Assembly (NCBI RefSeq): GCF_000166135.1
Contig: NC_014666.1
Coordinates: 1,736,001 to 1,800,000 of the forward strand
Reading direction: 5' to 3'
Origin: Pseudofrankia inefficax
GTDB taxonomy: Bacteria > Actinomycetota > Actinomycetes > Frankiales > Frankiaceae
DNA: 64,000 bases
Positions within the stretch are counted from its first letter, which is position 1. Each line of letters starts with the position of its first letter. Of this stretch, positions 41,358-51,500 are shown piece by piece. The notes under the pieces were generated by a model that saw only the letters and a list, made by a program, of their open reading frames with translations, did no database searches and was not told the DNA's origin. The translations under genes were made by a program, and so were the position numbers.

Positions 41358-42752
41358 TCAGTACATGCGCCACAGCCGTACCGTCCCGTCGTGGTCGCCG
41401 GTGGCGAGGGTGTGTCCATTGGCTGTGAACGCGACAGACATCACGGCCTCCGTGTGACCGGTGAGGGGTTGGCCGATCGGTCGGGGTCGGGTGCGATCAG
41501 CTACGTCCCAGAGTCGCACCATCCGGTCACAGCCGACGGTGGCGAGGGTGTGCCCGTCCGCGGCGAACGCGACCGACATCGCGGTGCCGACATAGCCGGT
41601 GAGGGGTTCGCCGATCGGTCCGGGTCGGGCGGGATCAGTGACGTCCCACAGTCGCACCGTTCCGTCACAGCCGACGGTGGCGAGGGTGTGTCCGTCCGCG
41701 GCGAACGCGACCGAGACGACGCCGCCTCTGTGACCAGTGAGGATCTGGCAGGTCTGCTCGGGTCGGGCGGGGTCGGTGATGTCCCAGAGCCGCACCATCC
41801 AGTCATAGCCGACGGTGGCGAGGGTGTGTCCGTTCGCCGCGAACGCGACCGACACGACGCCGCCAGCATGCCCGGTGAGAGGATGACCGATCTGCTCGGG
41901 TCGGGCAGGATCGGTGATGTCCCACAGCCGCACCAACCAGTCGACGCCGACGGTGGCGAGGATGTGCCCGTTCGCCGCGAACGCGACCGACACGACGCCG
42001 CCAGTCTGACCGGTAAGAGGTCGGCTGATCTGCTCGGGTCGGGTGGGATCGGTGACGTCCCACAGCCGTACCGACCAGTCGGCGCCGACGGTGGCGAGGG
42101 TGTGTCCGTCCGCGGCGAACGCGAGCGACACGACGCCGCCGACGTTGCCGGTGAAAGGTTCGCAGAGCGGGCCGGGATCGGTTGGCGGCGGGACGGGTGC
42201 CCGTCGAGCCGGCGAGGGGAAGGCATGCTCATCCACGGACCGGCTGTCGGGTACGGATATGGGGAACGTGGGCTGGGTGGTGGGCTTGGCTCGGCCAGAA
42301 ATCGAGCTTTGAACCTGGTCGAGCAGGTGCTGGGGGGCGTCGGCGGCGGTCCGGTCGAACAGGTCGATGGACACGACGGTATCGAGGAGACTCGGGCGAA
42401 GGCAGTCCTCGACACGGATGGGCAGGAGCTTGCGAGCGAAGCCGTTGGGGTCGGCGGCCTGGGCGGCCTGCCACTCCTGCTCGCCGTAGACCGACTTCAA
42501 GTAGGCAGCGGACAGGATCGCGATCGTCCGCTCCGCACGCTGGGCGCCTTCGCCCATGCGGAATCGCCAGTTCGTTCCGGGGACGAAGTCCCATGCCTCG
42601 ATCAGGACGCTGTACCCGGCTTCTTCTAAGTGCCAGGCCACCCACTCGGCCCAAGTGCGGTCAACACGCGTGTAGGAGACGAAGAAGTCCCACGCCTTCG
42701 CCTGCGGCGAAGCCCCCGAAGCACCCACGGCACAGATCTTCGCACCACGCAC
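41358..42752 (-). CDS. TIR-domain protein with six WD40 repeats
   Basis: 464-residue protein. Residues about 20-150 are a TIR domain of the TIR_2 type (WDFFVSYTRVD, AWDFVPGTNW, SAAYLKSVYGEQEW); E93 is at the place of the catalytic Glu of NAD-cleaving TIR domains. A Pro-rich linker leads to six near-identical 46-residue WD40 repeats (about 202-464), each with GGVVSVAF, DGHTLATVG and VRLWD. Known bacterial TIR proteins degrade NAD or make signals during phage defence; the propeller would sense or scaffold. Start is uncertain (GTG 42752, or GTG 42728); no strong ribosome binding site. Confidence 0.82.
   Translation of the reverse strand: MRGAKICAVGASGASPQAKAWDFFVSYTRVDRTWAEWVAWHLEEAGYSVLIEAWDFVPGTNWRFRMGEGAQRAERTIAILSAAYLKSVYGEQEWQAAQAADPNGFARKLLPIRVEDCLRPSLLDTVVSIDLFDRTAADAPQHLLDQVQSSISGRAKPTTQPTFPISVPDSRSVDEHAFPSPARRAPVPPPTDPGPLCEPFTGNVGGVVSLAFAADGHTLATVGADWSVRLWDVTDPTRPEQISRPLTGQTGGVVSVAFAANGHILATVGVDWLVRLWDITDPARPEQIGHPLTGHAGGVVSVAFAANGHTLATVGYDWMVRLWDITDPARPEQTCQILTGHRGGVVSVAFAADGHTLATVGCDGTVRLWDVTDPARPGPIGEPLTGYVGTAMSVAFAADGHTLATVGCDRMVRLWDVADRTRPRPIGQPLTGHTEAVMSVAFTANGHTLATGDHDGTVRLWRMY
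41361..42149. repeat. 138-bp tandem repeats encoding WD40 blades
   Basis: Six units of about 138 bp, highly alike at DNA level (for example GGCGAGGGTGTGTCC recurring every unit). They encode the WD40 repeats of the TIR protein. The low divergence suggests recent amplification or gene conversion. It is not a CRISPR array: units are long, in frame and without spacers. Confidence 0.8.
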
Positions 42753-43869: not shown

Positions 43870-44346
43870 GCACCGCTGTCACGTTCGTCGATACCCGTCC
43901 GAGCCCGGACCGACAGCCGAAGGCCACCCGCCGTGAGGGCGACCTCTGCCCCTGATCATGCGGCAAGGAGGCCCGTTTGCGGAGCCGCGGCTCGGCCTGG
44001 GTGACCGCCCACGCGACGCGCCGCGGCGGCCATGGTCCTGCCGCTGCGGCGGCGCGGGCAGGACGGTGTCGACCGGGCGTTCCGGTGGGCGCGGCACCAT
44101 GCGCTGGCCCAGGTCGACGCCTGTCGGGAGGACCTGCGCGCCGGCCGGGCAATTGACGGGGCCTCATATGTGATCACGATGTCAATATTGGCTCCGGCTG
44201 TCGCCAGGAGTGCTCGCAGGAGTCGGGTGGAGGTCAGCGGCCGTGCGCTGGCGGCGCGCCTGCTGGCGGCAGGCGCGACCAGACGGCATACGAGTGCCGA
44301 ATCTCATCGCCGGTGCCCAACGGCGCCAGCTACCCGACGCCGTCGC
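43870..44346. other. Intergenic region, no supported gene
   Basis: About 477 bp. A plus-strand frame around 44050-44170 encodes RAFRWARHHALAQVDACRED, which has protein-like character but no start, motif or conserved continuation; it may be a gene remnant. No repeats or strong hairpins were noticed. Confidence 0.4.
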
Positions 44347-44799: not shown

Positions 44800-45137
44800 G
44801 CCAGTCTTCCTGTCCGATGTGATTTCTGCTGGTGGCCGGCGTTTTATGATTCGCATCGTCACCCAGAGGCCCGACGGCTGGTACAACGCCGAGATCGAAT
44901 TGTCGTGACCTGCGTCGATGATCTAGCTGGAGCGTGCCGTCACGTCGGGCCGGCGCTCCCCTTCGAGTGAGGTTCCATGACGATCCTTTCCCTCGACGGT
45001 GGTCCGGGTGGCCCCGTGACGCCACGAAACCACTGCGAAAGATCGGAGGGAATATGGTCGAATAGACTCGTACAATGCCGTACAGCCCGTACGGGCTCGG
45101 GATGTACGGCCATGATGTGAGCGCGGGGGATGCGACC
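44800..45137. other. Divergent intergenic region with GTAC repeats
   Basis: 338 bp between the secreted-protein gene and the STAND gene. The right part carries four GTAC motifs (45070, 45080, 45089 and 45104), including CCGTAC-N5-GTACGG (45078-45094). Bases 45066-45071 and flanks are AT-richer and may be a promoter. The repeats are likely operator sites for the HTH domain of the downstream protein. Confidence 0.45.
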
Positions 45138-47693
45138 GTGATAGACAACCGCCGGATGCATCACGAGGATCCGAATCCAGCCATGATCCGCTCCCGCGAC
45201 GACTTCACCGCCGCGCTGCGACGGGTGCAGCACCGGTCCGGGATGTCGGTCCGCGAACTGGCCGCCGCGTCAGGCATACCGGCCAGCACGCTCGGCGGCT
45301 ACCTGTCCGGCGCTCACCTTCCGGCCCGCCGCCCCGCCGGGCTGCTGGGAAACCTCCTGCGGGCCGGCGGCATTCACCAGCCCGACCGCATCGAGGGCTG
45401 GGAACAGGCGTTGGCTCGCGTCAGGCACGGAAGCCCGGCCGAGCCCCTGCACGAGGGGATTAGCGAGGTCGCGGCGGTTCTTGGCTCCGTACGGCCGCCG
45501 TTCGGGCGGTTGGCGGACCGCCCGGCGGTACGCGGGCGCGACGGACTCATCGGTCTACTGGTCGAGGGCCTCATGGACACGGATGGCCGCGAGGCGCGCC
45601 CGCCCGACGGCCCTCGCGCCGCTCGTGTCCACGCGCTGACCGGAATGGGCGGCGTGGGCAAGAGCACCGTCGCGTTGGAGGTCGCGCATCGTGCCAGGCA
45701 GCTTGGTGTTCGCACCTGGTGGGTGAACGCCGGGGCAAGCCAGACCGTGGTGGCCGGCATGACCGCGGTAGCGATCGACCTCGGCGTGCCTGCCGAGCTC
45801 CTCCGGATCGGAAGCCTGCCGGATCTGACCCTGCGCGCGCTTGACGAGCTCGCCGAGCCCTGGCTGCTGGTGCTCGACGATGCTGATGACCCCGTCGGCG
45901 TCCTCGCGATGCCAGGCAGCGACGTCGCCGACGGGACCGGCTGGCTCCGGCCGGTCGACAGCCGTTATGGCACGGTGATCGTGACGACCCGTGACGGGTC
46001 CGACCAGACCTGGTCCGCGGGTGGTTCCGTGAACGGGAGCCGCTGGCTGCGCCGACACCGACTTGCGCGTCTGGACTCAACTGCCGGTGCGATGGTCCTG
46101 GCTGACGTCGCAGGGGAGCGGATCGGGCCCGCCGACGCCGCACGAGCCCTCTCGGACCGTCTTGACGGGCTGCCACTCGCGCTTGTCCTGGCGGGCCGGC
46201 TCATGGCCGAGGCTCGCCTCACCCCGGCGGCCATCCCGGGCCCGAGGCTCCCGAGTACCTGCGCCGAGTACGTGACGATGCTGGACCGGTCCGGGAATGA
46301 ACTGCTCCACAGAGCGGACACGGCGGACCTCCGCGCGCCCGAGGCGCCGGCGCGCAGCAGCCTGACTCGGACCTGGGATCTGTCTCTCGACCTGCTGGCC
46401 AGTCGTGGCCTGCCGCTCGCGCGGCCATTGCTGCGCCTGTTGTCATGCTTCGGGGCGGCTCCCATCGACGTCGGGCTCGTCCTCGACCTGAGCAGCCTGC
46501 CCCGCCCGGCGGTGCTTGAGAACCTCGGCGGGCCCGAGCTGTGGCGGCTGCTGCGGTCGCTGGCCGACGTCGGCCTGGTGGAGCTGAGCCATGAGCGCGA
46601 CCCCGGTGACCAGCTGGACCTTCCGATCGCGGGCTCAGACCTGCAGGTCGTCGTCCATCGGACGGTACGGGACGCGGCTAGAGCCGACCCGGACGTTCGA
46701 CGCCGAGCGCTGGACTACCACGGCGCCGTCGCGGCGATGCTCCTCAGGGCCGCGACGGGCGCCGATCCTCGCTCGCCGAGTTCCTGGCAGAGGTGGCTCG
46801 CCATCGCGCCGCACTGCGACCCGTTGGTAGATGTGGTGCGCGAGCAGGGCGCGGACCATGCCGGTCTGGCCGAGTCCGCGCTGGGCCTCGCCGCCTCCTG
46901 CGCCGCGTTCCGCCGGTCGGTTGGCTGGCTCGCCCTGTCCAAGGCTGCCTGCGCTTACGCGCTCCGAACCGGCACGGCGATGCTCGGGCCACGATCCCCG
47001 ATCGTCCTTGAGCTACGGCACCAGCACGCTCGGGCCCGCTACGCGAACGGGGAGCTGGACGCCGCGCAGGTCGAGTTGCGAGCAGTGCTCGAGACCCGGG
47101 CCGGCATGCTCGGGACACTCCATCCGGACACCCTCACCACTCGGCACTATCTAGCCAGGACGTTACGTGATCTTGGGTTTGTCGATGAGGCGGAGGATCT
47201 GTTCGCACGCACAGCCCAGGACCGTGCGAGCACCCTGGGCGCGCATCATCGGGACACACTCACCAGCCGCAACAATCTGGCGGATGTGCTGCGGGAGCGT
47301 GGCAAGTACCAGGAGGCTGAGGTGATTCTCACCGACGTACTGACGGCGCGGGCCGCGCTTCTCGGCGCGGACCATCCTGCGACCCTCGTGACCGAGTACC
47401 ACCTGGCCAGGTTAGAACGCGGCCAGGGCGACCTGCCCGCAGCTCGGGTGCGTCTGCGGAGGCTGCACCAGACCAGCAGGCGAGTACTCGGACCGTCGCA
47501 TCCACGGACTTTGGCGGTCGAGCAATCCATCGTCGAGCTTCTACGAGAACTTGGGCACCATGAGGAAGCGCGACGACGTGGCCGCGCCCTCCTTGACGCG
47601 AGAACCGAGGTGCTGGGCGCCGATCACCCGGCGACCAGGCAGACCCGTCAGGTTCTTACGCTGGTCATGGCGGATCTGGCTCGTTCCAGGTGA
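45138..47693 (+). CDS. HTH-NB-ARC-TPR protein (STAND NTPase)
   Basis: About 851 residues. An N-terminal XRE-type HTH (about 20-65: RSGMSVRELAAASGIPASTLGGYL) is followed by an NB-ARC NTPase with Walker A GMGGVGKST (169-177) and Walker B WLLVLDDADD (242-251), GLPLAL motif, winged-helix part, and C-terminal TPR_10/12-like repeats (GTLHPDTLTTRHYLARTLRDLG, GAHHRDTLTSRNNLADVLRERG). STAND proteins oligomerise on sensing a trigger. GTG at 45138 is chosen for GGGGGA at the right distance; the frame is open from 45075 and another ATG lies at 45183. The kinase-like STAND gene follows 65 bp later. Confidence 0.82.
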   Translation: MIDNRRMHHEDPNPAMIRSRDDFTAALRRVQHRSGMSVRELAAASGIPASTLGGYLSGAHLPARRPAGLLGNLLRAGGIHQPDRIEGWEQALARVRHGSPAEPLHEGISEVAAVLGSVRPPFGRLADRPAVRGRDGLIGLLVEGLMDTDGREARPPDGPRAARVHALTGMGGVGKSTVALEVAHRARQLGVRTWWVNAGASQTVVAGMTAVAIDLGVPAELLRIGSLPDLTLRALDELAEPWLLVLDDADDPVGVLAMPGSDVADGTGWLRPVDSRYGTVIVTTRDGSDQTWSAGGSVNGSRWLRRHRLARLDSTAGAMVLADVAGERIGPADAARALSDRLDGLPLALVLAGRLMAEARLTPAAIPGPRLPSTCAEYVTMLDRSGNELLHRADTADLRAPEAPARSSLTRTWDLSLDLLASRGLPLARPLLRLLSCFGAAPIDVGLVLDLSSLPRPAVLENLGGPELWRLLRSLADVGLVELSHERDPGDQLDLPIAGSDLQVVVHRTVRDAARADPDVRRRALDYHGAVAAMLLRAATGADPRSPSSWQRWLAIAPHCDPLVDVVREQGADHAGLAESALGLAASCAAFRRSVGWLALSKAACAYALRTGTAMLGPRSPIVLELRHQHARARYANGELDAAQVELRAVLETRAGMLGTLHPDTLTTRHYLARTLRDLGFVDEAEDLFARTAQDRASTLGAHHRDTLTSRNNLADVLRERGKYQEAEVILTDVLTARAALLGADHPATLVTEYHLARLERGQGDLPAARVRLRRLHQTSRRVLGPSHPRTLAVEQSIVELLRELGHHEEARRRGRALLDARTEVLGADHPATRQTRQVLTLVMADLARSR

Positions 47694-47758: not shown

Positions 47759-50416
47759 ATGGATCCCGATGTTGTGGACCGGCTCGGCGCGGAACTCGCG
47801 GCGGGACTCGGTGAGCCGGCGGCGCGCGCCCTGACCGAATGGGCCGCTCAGGAGGACACCAGGTTCCGTCTCGACCGCTGGCTCGTCAACGGCAAAACGA
47901 ACGCGGTGCTAGCGGTCGTTGAGGAGAACGACGACCTTGCGGAGCGGGCGCGCAAGCTGGTTCTCAAACTGGACCGGGTGCCCGCCGGCGACGCTGGTAC
48001 CAGCGAATACGCTCGGGCCAGGCGCGCGATCAAGGACTCGCCCGAGTTCGCGAGGGTGCACCTGGCCGCTCCGGTTCGCGGGCCGGTCAGGGTTGGTGAC
48101 GGAACCTGGCTGGCGTTCCAGGAGATCGCCGGCCATGATCCCACCGACTACCGCGTGCTCGCCGCGCTGTTCGCCGGAATGCTCGGTAGCGCTCTGGGCA
48201 CAAGCGACGGCGTCGACCCTGTTACCTGCGACCCGGCGACCTTCGTGGCGACCTGCCGTCGCCTGGTCGACGGGGTTCTCGTTGAGTGGGCCCGCCAACC
48301 GAAAACGGAGGTCTGCACCAGCCAGCATTTCCTCCGCGCCATCCTTGGGAATCGGCTCGCCCCCGGCCAGCCGCTGCATCGGCTGGCGTCCGAGCTACCC
48401 CGGGACCGGATCGACCTCGAGGGCGAGCCGGAATCGCTTCCCAACCCTTTCGCGCTCGCCATGGGCGCCGCACCGGGCCCCACGCTGTCCATGCTCCTCG
48501 GGCGCTGCCACGCCGACCTGCACAGCCAGAACGTACTCGTCCGGGTGAACCCGGCCATTGACGCTGCGGACTATGTGTTCGTCGACCTCGCCAAGTACGA
48601 ATCGGCGGGCCCACTCGTTCGCGATCCTGTCCACCTCGTCCTGTACGTCATCTCGCGGGCGATGCCTACGTTGAGCGCGCACCACCGCGACGTACTGCTC
48701 GACGTGCTGGTCAGGCCCGCCAACGCTCCAGACGGCCGCGGTTCGTTCCTTCCGCTCTGGCTCGGAGACCTCGTCAACGGCGTATGGGAGACGGGGGAGT
48801 CCTGGATACGTGAGTTCTCCTACGGCCCGGAGTGGAGACAGCAGCGGCTGCTCGCCCTGCTCGCCTGCGCACTGATCTTCTACGGTCGCGAATCCACCGC
48901 CGAGGATGTGCGTCCTTGGTTCCTGCGCCTGGCGGCCCGCTGCGCTTCGGTGGTCGGCGGCGACGGATGGGGCGTCGGCCCGACCACCGCCGGGACGCAG
49001 CCAGGGGGCTCCGCTGCCGACGGGGTCCCGGCGGCTGGCGTAAGGGCGTCGGGCGTGGCTGCGAACGCGTCGTCGACAGGGGCGACGCCGCGGTCACGGG
49101 AGCTGTCCGACACCGAGTCGTACATGGTCGGACGGGGCCAGGAGCTCCAGATGCTCGGCGAGCTGGTGTCGGGCACGTCCGACCAACGGCTGGTCAACAT
49201 CTATGGACCTGGGGGGATCGGTAAGTCCGAGGTCTGCCGGGCGTTCCTCCGCCAGGAGCGAGCCGCTCTGCGGGGCGTGGTCACCTCGGTGGACCTCAAC
49301 CGACCAGATCTCACCCCGAACGTCATCCTGCGTGATCTGACCGAGGGTCTGGTCATGACAGCGCGACCGGATGACGACCGGGTCCGATCCGTTCTGGCCG
49401 GCGTCCTCGCCCGGCTGGACGAGCATGCTTTCGTGTCGAACCTGGTCGACACGAGCGGCGGTATCGACGCGATGTTCGACGTGCTCGGCAGGCCACTGGA
49501 TGAGGCGACGCTGGCCAGGGCGACCGCCGCCGCTGACGTCGACGCCGCGGTCTCGCCGATGGCGCGGCGGGCGCTTGGCAACCGGTTCGCGCTGGATCGT
49601 TATCTGCGAGGCGCGGAACGCGACCTGGCCAGGACGTTCGCGGCCGCCCTGGCGACTGCCTTCGAGGACGAGAGCCGGCCGGTGGTGATGCTGCTGGACA
49701 CCTATGAGGAAATCGGTTCTCTCGACGACTGGCTATGCCGGCGGCTGGTCCCAGAGCTTCCCCAGTCGGCTCGGCTCGTTCTCTTCGGTCGTAACCAGCT
49801 AACGAAGGAAAACCTCGACTGGGCGGACTACGGCGACTCCCTGCGGATGCAGCCGCTTCCCGAACTGGCGGAGGACGACGCCAAGACATTCCTGCGCCAT
49901 CACGGTCTCTCCGATCCTACGGCGCTGGACGAGGTCTATCGGTTCACCGGCGGGTATCCACTCCTGCTGGTGCTGGTACGGCTACTCGCCCGTGAATCCG
50001 GGAGCTGGTCAGCGATCGGCGAGATGCGCGCGTCCGGGAACCGCGACCGGGTGGCGAGCCGGCTGCTGGACCGCATCCTGCGCGAACAGCGAGCGGCCGA
50101 GGTGCGCGAGGTGCTGGAGAAGTGCGCCGTCGCGTCCTGGATCGACCCTGAGATCATCGCGACGTTGCTGGAGATCGGATCCGACGAGGCCAGAGGCGTC
50201 TACGAGAAGATCCAACGCCACTCCTTCATGGAGCCGCATCCGTTCGGAGTGCGACTCCACGACAAGATCCGCGAACTACTGGTCGAGCGGATGCGGTTCA
50301 CGAGCGAGTCGGAGTACCAGCGGCTGGACGGCCTGCTCACCGAGATGCACCGGGCTCGGGCCCGGATCGCCCAGCCGAAAGAGGACGAGGATGACGGGCC
50401 CAGGCCGGAGGCGTGA
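47759..50416 (+). CDS. Kinase/phosphotransferase-like domain fused to STAND NTPase
   Basis: 885 residues. The N-terminal about 400 residues look like a protein-kinase or aminoglycoside-phosphotransferase fold: Lys70 in LVLKLD, the catalytic loop HADLHSQN (H251, D253, N258) and a VFVDL metal-binding strand; it may be the ternary-complex-associated kinase-like type (TCAD9) known from conflict systems. A disordered Gly/Ala/Thr linker (about 410-450) leads to a STAND NTPase with Walker A GPGGIGKS (483-490), Walker B VVMLLDTYEE (about 642-651) and helical sensor region. The 3' end overlaps the TPR gene by 26 bp. It could phosphorylate a target or nucleotide on activation; this is inference. Confidence 0.75.
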   Translation: MDPDVVDRLGAELAAGLGEPAARALTEWAAQEDTRFRLDRWLVNGKTNAVLAVVEENDDLAERARKLVLKLDRVPAGDAGTSEYARARRAIKDSPEFARVHLAAPVRGPVRVGDGTWLAFQEIAGHDPTDYRVLAALFAGMLGSALGTSDGVDPVTCDPATFVATCRRLVDGVLVEWARQPKTEVCTSQHFLRAILGNRLAPGQPLHRLASELPRDRIDLEGEPESLPNPFALAMGAAPGPTLSMLLGRCHADLHSQNVLVRVNPAIDAADYVFVDLAKYESAGPLVRDPVHLVLYVISRAMPTLSAHHRDVLLDVLVRPANAPDGRGSFLPLWLGDLVNGVWETGESWIREFSYGPEWRQQRLLALLACALIFYGRESTAEDVRPWFLRLAARCASVVGGDGWGVGPTTAGTQPGGSAADGVPAAGVRASGVAANASSTGATPRSRELSDTESYMVGRGQELQMLGELVSGTSDQRLVNIYGPGGIGKSEVCRAFLRQERAALRGVVTSVDLNRPDLTPNVILRDLTEGLVMTARPDDDRVRSVLAGVLARLDEHAFVSNLVDTSGGIDAMFDVLGRPLDEATLARATAAADVDAAVSPMARRALGNRFALDRYLRGAERDLARTFAAALATAFEDESRPVVMLLDTYEEIGSLDDWLCRRLVPELPQSARLVLFGRNQLTKENLDWADYGDSLRMQPLPELAEDDAKTFLRHHGLSDPTALDEVYRFTGGYPLLLVLVRLLARESGSWSAIGEMRASGNRDRVASRLLDRILREQRAAEVREVLEKCAVASWIDPEIIATLLEIGSDEARGVYEKIQRHSFMEPHPFGVRLHDKIRELLVERMRFTSESEYQRLDGLLTEMHRARARIAQPKEDEDDGPRPEA

Positions 50417-51500
50417 CGTCGACGAGCTGACCCACCTGGTCGAGTACATCCGCCGGGTGCTGGCACGGGACACCATGGTCGGTCTGCGGGAATGGTCGAC
50501 CCACTTCACCGCGAGCCGGCAGTCGGGGGCCTACGACAGATGCCAGCGCCTGCTGCATGCCGTGAAGAGTGTGCCTCTGCCGCCGCATGGAATCGGCATC
50601 GTCCGCTACGGAGAGGGCTGGCTGTACGACCGGATGGGTCTGTGGCAGGAGTCGATCACCGCATATCGCGCCAGCCTGAAGGCATTCGAGGCGGTCGGGC
50701 TGCCGCTGGCGACCGAGGTCTGGATGAACATCGGGTCCGTCTACCAGGACCAGGGTGACTGGGGCGCCGCAGAGGATGCTTATCGCAAGGCGCTCGACGT
50801 CGCGGACGATCCTCGGTCGCGCGGTGCGGTCTACAACAATCTCGGCGGCTTGCTGCTGCTTCGTGACGACCTGGATGGCGCGGCGGAAAGCTACGCGCAG
50901 GCGCGTGCCCTACTGCGGTCCGCGGAGGATCACTACAACTACGCGGCGGCGACCGTCGGCGAGGCGGGTGTCCTGCGTGACCGCGGCCTCTTCGGAGACG
51001 CGCAAAAGCTCCTCATGGAGGCTCTGGGGATCTATCAGCGGCTGCGGGATCCGCACGCGGTGGCGATGACCTTGGGTGCTCTCGCCGTGACATACCAATA
51101 CGCCAACGAAGTCGGTGAGGCGATCCGCTGGTACGAGATCGCGCTCGCCATCGGCGTTGCCGCCAAGGACCAGACAGTCGTCGTCCGTACCCTCGCGAAC
51201 CTTGCACTCACCAACGAATCGGCCGGCGACCATGACAAAGCACTCGACTACCTGGAACAAGCAGTTGAGGGTTACCGCGAGCTTGGCGACCGTCACGGCG
51301 AGGCGGTGGCGTTGGTGAACCTGGCCCGCTTGCAGCAACGCCGCGCGGACCATGCCGCGAGCGCGGTGGCTGCGGAGGCCGCCGCCAGACTGTGCGACAC
51401 CTACGGGTACCCGGAGGAACTCGCGCGGCTGCGCGAGCAGGTATCCACCATCGCTGAGATCGGCCCCGCCCCCGGCTACCGAGTCCACGGTGCCGACTAG
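50391..51500 (+). CDS. TPR-repeat protein coupled to the kinase-STAND gene
   Basis: 369-residue all-helical protein with about six or seven TPR units (for example EVWMNIGSVYQDQGDWGAAEDAYRKAL, RGAVYNNLGGLLLLRDDLDGAAESY, VVRTLANLALTNESAGDHDKALDY in parts). No enzymatic domain. It overlaps the preceding gene by 26 bp, so they are translated together. The TPR array that STAND proteins usually carry in cis seems split off here, making this the likely sensor or adaptor partner. Confidence 0.8.
   Translation: MTGPGRRRDVDELTHLVEYIRRVLARDTMVGLREWSTHFTASRQSGAYDRCQRLLHAVKSVPLPPHGIGIVRYGEGWLYDRMGLWQESITAYRASLKAFEAVGLPLATEVWMNIGSVYQDQGDWGAAEDAYRKALDVADDPRSRGAVYNNLGGLLLLRDDLDGAAESYAQARALLRSAEDHYNYAAATVGEAGVLRDRGLFGDAQKLLMEALGIYQRLRDPHAVAMTLGALAVTYQYANEVGEAIRWYEIALAIGVAAKDQTVVVRTLANLALTNESAGDHDKALDYLEQAVEGYRELGDRHGEAVALVNLARLQQRRADHAASAVAAEAAARLCDTYGYPEELARLREQVSTIAEIGPAPGYRVHGAD

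Follow-up and report, generated by a model that had tools for sequence, protein, structure and literature searches.

The outputs known for NLR-like proteins of bacteria include nucleases, TIR domains and proteases. The locus described here is found in the soil actinomycete Pseudofrankia inefficax, in a 64,000-bp stretch of contig NC_014666.1 (positions 1,736,001 to 1,800,000, forward strand; this whole stretch is called the window, and positions are counted from its first base). It consists of three genes, X, K and T. K joins an N-terminal kinase-fold domain to an ATPase core of the STAND (signal transduction ATPases with numerous domains) type, T encodes a tetratricopeptide repeat (TPR) protein and overlaps the end of K, and X, a second STAND gene, lies upstream. 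Judged from its sequence, X-K-T is probably a machine of known type, a STAND switch with a TPR sensor, distinguished by an unusual, probably active kinase that serves as output or relay, by a further STAND protein as its partner and maybe by a detached sensor.

In STAND proteins of the MalT/PH0952 type, an ATPase core is combined with a TPR superhelix that autoinhibits it, as described by Lisa et al. 2019 (PMC6468293). The window has the same two parts, but its TPRs are on a separate gene and K carries an N-terminal kinase-fold domain. A second likeness is to the vWA-MoxR ternary systems, for which passages of Kaur et al. 2020 (PMC7159879) and of a 2021 paper (PMC8195603) propose an active kinase of the APH superfamily as a conflict effector in multicellular bacteria. 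A few active APH-superfamily kinases appear as effectors of VMAP ternary systems in the former, and bDLD3 and small-molecule kinases appear in related systems in the latter. In contrast, X-K-T is without the vWA-MoxR-VMAP core and has its kinase on a STAND core instead; no vWA or MoxR was found among X, K, T and six scanned neighbours, which are a subset of the window's open reading frames (ORFs). AP-ATPase-TPR proteins are also described by Kaur et al. as neighbors of FxSxx peptide systems. The TPR protein of FxSxx-COOH systems (NCBIfam FxSxx_TPR, NF040586) is resembled by X over residues 154-864 with 257.2 bits, which lies under the cut-off of 300 and leaves X outside the family.

Closest in layout are eight fused proteins found in this survey, in which kinase, STAND core and TPRs stand in the same order with a total length similar to that of K plus T. 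They differ in being one polypeptide, in having a gene for S_4TM, a predicted membrane pore, in the flank, in having no X homologue that could be found, in a kinase of another clade and in a STAND core that is not close. A literature search at the level of titles and abstracts, with the subscription literature mostly outside it, gave no description of a kinase-STAND-TPR protein with S_4TM.

The cassette and the kinase-STAND protein K

The features of the locus, with the evidence for each, are:
45075..47693, + strand: gene X, 872 aa, with an XRE-type helix-turn-helix (HTH), an NB-ARC-like STAND region and C-terminal TPRs (ORF list, Pfam, NCBIfam)
47759..50416, + strand: gene K, 885 aa, kinase-fold domain, linker and STAND-type ATPase (uninterrupted ORF, ATG start)
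47759..48973, + strand: kinase-fold domain of K, residues 1-405, of APH/choline/MTR-kinase type and TCAD9-like (AlphaFold2, PDB matches, TCAD9)
48509..48532, + strand: catalytic loop HADLHSQN of K, residues 251-258 (motif, alignment)
49127..49780, + strand: AAA_16/STAND ATPase core of K, residues 457-674 (Pfam)
49205..49228, + strand: Walker A GPGGIGKS of K, residues 483-490 (motif)
50391..51500, + strand: gene T, TPR protein of 369 aa, +1 frame relative to K (ORF, Pfam, codon-frame score)
41358..42752, - strand: TIR-WD40 gene, a possible effector (TIR_2 118.8 bits, WD40 168.3 bits)

X ends 65 bp before the start of K on the same strand, so the cassette is X-K-T. The kinase-STAND protein K with the overlapping TPR gene T is a real observation. 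It had been made in a first-pass annotation of the window, and its parts hold: K is a single ORF with a phosphotransferase-type fold (K70, HADLHSQN) and a STAND NTPase, as seen from AAA_16, the Walker motifs and the AlphaFold2 and PDB matches, and T is a separate ORF, overlapping K by 26 bp, with a TPR_12 match of 119.4 bits and a codon-frame score in its favor.

K70, HADLHSQN (H251-N258) and D276 are all present in K at the expected places. The AlphaFold2 model of the N-terminal domain has a pLDDT of 90.8 and a pTM of 0.90. When it was compared with the PDB by Foldseek, 26 matches were obtained at E<=0.001, 25 of them with kinase titles; the remaining one, Rv3168, is presumably APH-like. Examples are MTR kinase 2pu8 (E 4.6e-6; the title abbreviation MTNK was taken to mean MTR kinase) and choline kinase (4.8e-5), and query TM-scores for the 26 matches were low (0.26-0.41, in long gapped alignments). 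With VIA-align the best match was chain A of the LxmKY lexapeptide complex, taken to be the kinase LxmK (Z 18.1, root-mean-square deviation 3.8, 287 residues aligned), followed by MTR kinase and 25-hydroxysteroid kinase (Z 16-17) and APH(4)-Ia (15.0); N-acetylhexosamine kinase and choline kinase were also matched. By its model the domain is of the APH/choline-kinase fold type, a fold from which the substrate cannot be read. A sequence search of K against the PDB gave no match at E up to 1, and a profile search gave chance-level matches alone, all to kinase entries (best E 0.41, RNase L).

The catalytic set of a kinase (the beta3 Lys, the helix-C Glu, HxDxxxxN and the following Asp) falls at fitting strands and helices of the model, active sites not having been superposed. 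K70, E83, H251, D253, H255, N258 and D276 are invariant in 32 of 32 aligned kinase domains, namely the window's and 31 rows from 30 loci; L057, L058, L074, L078, L079 and L080 were excluded as fragments, partial or weak. The patterns of the genome-contig scan included HGDLH and WF.RLAA, which makes the invariance of the residues in these stretches partly one of construction. However, K70, E83, N258 and D276 lie outside those patterns, and K70, E83, H251, D253, N258 and D276 are invariant also in a set of 12 rows that was gathered without the HGDLH pattern. The kinase domain is thus probably active.

As a sequence family the domain is a distant relative of TCAD9 (PF19974, Ternary complex associated domain 9). 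The short or the long name occurs in four papers, and in PMC10910872 it stands in a figure legend. The match covers residues 214-299 around the catalytic loop and scores 13.6 bits for the whole protein and 14.3 for the domain, below the gathering cut-off of 40 bits, so that K is not a TCAD9 member by that measure. Across the 32 aligned domains TCAD9 matches every one at E up to 1 (best 2.3e-11), and the next families are EcKL (10), Kdo (8) and APH (5), all kinase-like by name. The kinase-like nature that had been predicted for this region is therefore upheld by structure matches and by a TCAD9/APH-type relation below threshold. Five TCAD9 matches, under the cut-off, occur elsewhere in the P. 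inefficax genome and none at K.

The STAND core of K is recognized by Pfam AAA_16 on residues 457-674 (36.9 bits, cut-off 32.6). A Walker-B-like VMLLDTYEE starts at residue 643, and with Walker A it completes the pair of motifs looked for in a STAND P-loop core. Relatives of this core were found on plasmids and in 17 of 296 genomes, a count that includes P. inefficax itself, with 24-34% identity over the matched part; their ORFs are 685-1142 aa long with no kinase domain detected. Five were scanned, and TPRs were seen in L087 but in none of L082, L084, L089 and L098 at E up to 0.01. NACHT matches in the P. inefficax genome are all away from the cassette.

A tRNA-Ala(GGC) gene at 44235-44319 lies just upstream of the cassette, and a mild dip in GC (0.67-0.70) extends across 42-54 kb, although 0.67-0.69 occurs elsewhere in the window too. 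Together they mark a possible insertion site. Promoter and terminator scans stayed at chance level.

Relatives of the kinase and the conserved partner X

Relatives of the kinase domain were drawn from searches of the order and the class, a Streptomyces plasmid (locus L026) and a scan of genome contigs (36 loci), which makes 37 loci in all. Within the order 13 of 35 genomes have the domain, and in the class at least 14 of 393 do (best four candidates per genome scored). Full-protein Pfam scans were made for all but L049, L050, L053, L057, L058, L078 and L080, and these seven except L080 have TIR-like tails by BLAST; the Frankia loci L047, L051, L054, L055 and L071 were scanned through copies.

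What follows the kinase varies. It is TIR in Frankia loci, bDLD3 in L071 (scanned as L040), TPR in L066, EAD8 with an FGE-sulfatase domain in L079, and a below-cut-off nSTAND5 in L059; some tails have no Pfam domain, and in L068 the order is STAND-TPR-kinase. Kinase, STAND and TPR are joined in one polypeptide in eight of the 37 loci (L026, L063, L070, L072, L073, L075, L076 and L077), from Streptomyces, Dactylosporangium, Actinophytocola, Actinomadura and Rhizocola. A TPR match above cut-off is found in seven of the eight, L072 being the exception. When a profile built from the eight is compared with the window's proteins, it covers K from residue 10 up to and including the P-loop (200.6 bits), skips the rest of the STAND core and picks up again at the repeats of T (32.5 bits). 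The first-pass annotation was right in kind about STAND plus TPR. Its suggestion of a distinct two-gene device is not supported, and these loci show that the architecture is not unique. In the Rhizocola protein (L063:7857-12236) the kinase is accompanied by a VMAP-M0 region, NB-ARC and TPRs, forming a bridge to the vWA-MoxR systems.

A tree of 34 rows, the aligned 32 plus two from L026, places the window's kinase in a clade of 13 rows (support 100/100) that it shares with Frankia kinase-TIR proteins and with Micromonospora, Dactylosporangium, Nocardia, Streptomyces LUP30 and Catellatospora. The fused proteins fall outside it, and a single clade of the window and seven fused rows is rejected (approximately unbiased (AU) test, p 8e-8; L063 was not in the test). 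Taken with the distant STAND cores, this points to at least two separate assemblies of the architecture, which probably arose more than once.

The conserved partner of K is X, not T, as far as gene neighborhoods can tell, and X was overlooked when the locus was taken for a two-gene device. X has a Walker A at residues 190-197 and LLVLDD from 264. Within the clade of the window's kinase, X is upstream of the kinase on the same strand in nine of 13 rows: the window, L045 (36-bp gap), L056 (4-bp overlap) and six Frankia loci, at distances of up to ~2.4 kb. In L048 it is ~5 kb downstream of the kinase on the other strand, L052 has no X in the examined flank, and the contigs of L046 and L049 are too short to judge. 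Outside the clade, X was found in no locus at E up to 1e-40, and L026 has none at 1e-4. Among the 35 genomes of the order, 12 have X and the kinase, one the kinase alone, one X alone and 21 neither (limits E 1e-3 and 1e-30; Fisher p 2e-7, not corrected for kinship). Eight genomes represent the window's genus, and X or K is in the window's genome alone, with neither in the seven others at the limits used; this fits gain as a unit. The P. inefficax genome is itself rich in STAND genes of the FxSxx_TPR type, with 44 matched stretches, 11 of which exceed 300 bits on their own.

Other neighbors of the kinase are of interest in particular branches. In Nocardia farcinica (L046) the kinase (3-1580, + strand) ends in GLQVGDGNRQENNFH, and a convergent neighbor (1626-2378, - strand) with a hydrophobic stretch and NPCBM carries GVVVGEGNTQINNHF. 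The two look to us like a shared RHIM/BASS3-type amyloid signalling motif. A pattern for the GLQVGDGNRQENNFH form matched one of 3749 ORFs. Bacterial BASS motifs are described in passages of PMC7889193. A related uncharacterised protein is found beside the kinase in three genera (L045:3946-4764, L056:9583-10410 and L052:6922-7851; 272, 275 and 309 aa). In L045 and L056 it has hydrophobic segments and no Pfam match, and it is possibly the effector of that branch.

A proposed kinase switch and its alternatives

X-K-T may be an NLR-like (STAND) conflict or stress switch with a kinase output on the STAND core and a TPR sensor in trans, a reading that we hold at about an even chance. T would supply in trans the TPR superhelix that forms the C-terminal end of the single protein in relatives. 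By analogy with STAND proteins of the MalT/PH0952 type, the resting ATPase core would be held shut by contacts with the TPRs. A trigger, either caught by T or relayed by X, would open the core, ATP would replace ADP and K would oligomerise. The clustered kinase domains would then phosphorylate a small molecule or peptide, and the cell would be arrested or an effector switched on. For X-K-T we infer the autoinhibition, the oligomerisation, the substrate and the outcome, and an immunity role would be read from the domains and the neighboring genes. The eight loci that fuse kinase, STAND and TPR argue that K and T act together, and the TIR, bDLD3 and S_4TM partners of relatives, being conflict-type, argue for a conflict switch.

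Several observations weigh against such a switch. No Pfam model named for STAND reaches its cut-off in K (nSTAND1 15.7 against 27.1). In the full-length model most of the STAND part has a pLDDT <50, because the alignment is poor there, and this is too low a confidence to judge the helical and winged-helix subdomains that would close the core. Among the fused proteins an ATPase model is above the Pfam cut-off in three of eight (L063, L075 and L076). L072, with weak matches (AAA_16 13.9 bits, TPR_12 28.3 against 30.1), is counted on the strength of its near relative L026. Their profile stops after the P-loop of K, so the STAND cores are not close, though order and parts agree; an old fusion lost many times could also give the non-monophyly of the tree. 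The co-occurrence of X and the kinase is confounded by kinship, since 12 of the 13 kinase genomes and 12 of the 13 X genomes belong to one other genus, the thirteenth of each being the window's own. In the six Frankia loci a UbiA gene on the opposite strand lies between X and the kinase (by BLAST; by Pfam in L030), so that the two are not one operon there and the surroundings are not an obvious defence island; other Frankia neighbors of the pair were not scanned. For K, PADLOC had no match; over the repeats of T it reported TPR models and PDC-S39 (E 5.8e-6), and for X it reported mad1 at 16.2 bits. Searches of viral contigs and phage records yielded no relative at the limits used. Finally, the separate effector gene S_4TM in relatives means that the kinase may not be the output.

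This last point leads to the alternative that the kinase domain serves as sensor, adaptor or regulator and that the cassette controls another effector, either the TIR-WD40 gene or an unlinked gene, which would do the killing. It is tentative, somewhat improbable on balance. An S_4TM gene is in the examined flank of all eight fused loci and of three of the 29 others (L066, L071 and L074), an association noticed before it was counted (post hoc), with flanks unequal and short at several of the 29 loci. S_4TM was called by Pfam PF18159 in L073 (216 bits), by annotation in L026 and by BLAST in the others. The first 4 bp of the kinase ORF are shared with the S_4TM ORF in L070, L073, L075 and L076, a closeness set against distances of 1.8 kb in L063, 3.3 kb in L072 (where S_4TM adjoins a second kinase ORF) and 4.9 kb in L074. 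The window has no S_4TM-like ORF that could be found; none was found in the whole genome either, but there the control panel was silent too, so that absence is not shown. Kinase-TIR fusions in Frankia also favor a separate effector, as does a relative of a TPR-CHAT protein, CHAT being a protease, directly after the kinase in L048 (50% identity, BLAST). L071 combines a kinase-bDLD3 protein with a TPR-CHAT protein convergent with the kinase and with a bDLD3-nSTAND1 protein whose propeller-like repeats score below cut-off; the bDLD3 common to the kinase and the nSTAND1 protein would fit recruitment of the kinase through matching death-like domains. Against this alternative, the candidate TIR-WD40 gene of the window lies on the opposite strand and 2.3 kb from X. 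Its TIR has 28-33% identity to the TIR tails of Frankia kinases, with 44% over 39 residues among the matches listed. The intact active site of K argues for catalysis, though a regulatory kinase would fit it as well.

It is rather unlikely, but of some weight, that K and T make up one kinase-STAND-TPR gene, which a single frameshift, natural or from assembly error, has interrupted at the 26-bp overlap. T is 369 aa long from the ATG at 50391, and the ORF list opens the same frame at a GTG at 49992. The codon-frame score indicates coding in the frame of K up to the overlap and in that of T from the overlap, with no gap. This switch means that T is coding, and both a real split and a frameshifted fused gene fit it. 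The fused form, of 1202-1459 aa compared with 885+369 in the window, is known from the eight loci, and a search of 197 genomes of the class brought up no further separate T, the best other match having 29% identity (plasmid matches are similar in kind). A TPR gene unlinked in homologous loci, which the first-pass annotation had named as one finding that would refute it, is therefore half the case: as a separate gene T was found in no homologous locus, because no close homologue of it was found. Against a frameshift, the kinase of K is outside the clade of the fused proteins, which then do not imply a fused ancestor. The last predicted helix of K ends at 871 and is followed by a hydrophilic tail where a domain boundary would be expected, at low confidence in the full-length model, and a purine-rich AGAGGA lies at a plausible spacing before the ATG of T, a weak point. 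MalT-like proteins have core and sensor in one polypeptide, whereas K and T are separate ORFs unless frameshifted.

A more elaborate form of the switch with kinase output is a relay of two NLR-like proteins, in which X senses and activates K, and the STAND-gated APH-type kinase makes a phosphorylated small-molecule or peptide signal. The TPR protein would be an exchangeable free subunit, and the kinase family would act throughout the actinomycetes as a general and interchangeable module for output or relay, recruiting TIR, 4TM pore, CHAT or death-like partners. We consider this quite unlikely as a whole.

Least probable of the broader readings, and very doubtful, is a developmental or metabolic regulator of the MalT/AfsR kind, in which X would regulate transcription through its XRE domain and the kinase would have a metabolite as its substrate. 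It agrees with the HTH in X, with the sub-threshold likeness of T to the MalT TPR region (39.5 bits, cut-off 45) and AfsR (39.8 bits, cut-off 1430), with a K fold nearest to small-molecule and peptide kinases, and with the UbiA gene between X and the kinase in Frankia. The recurrent TIR, bDLD3, EAD8, CHAT and S_4TM partners are of conflict type, however, and X and K, unlike a core regulator, are missing from the rest of the genus at the limits used. A plain aminoglycoside-resistance kinase is unlikely, the domain of K being distant and joined to an ATPase core.

Significance of a proposed STAND-gated kinase

If the conflict or stress switch is the true reading, a STAND-gated APH-type kinase adds phosphotransfer to a metabolite or peptide to the outputs of NLR-like proteins. 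With a split sensor, it would also be possible to purify sensor and switch and to put them together again. The kinase family, paired as it is with 4TM pore, TIR, CHAT and death-like partners, provides a set of loci in which a role as output can be tested against a role as relay.

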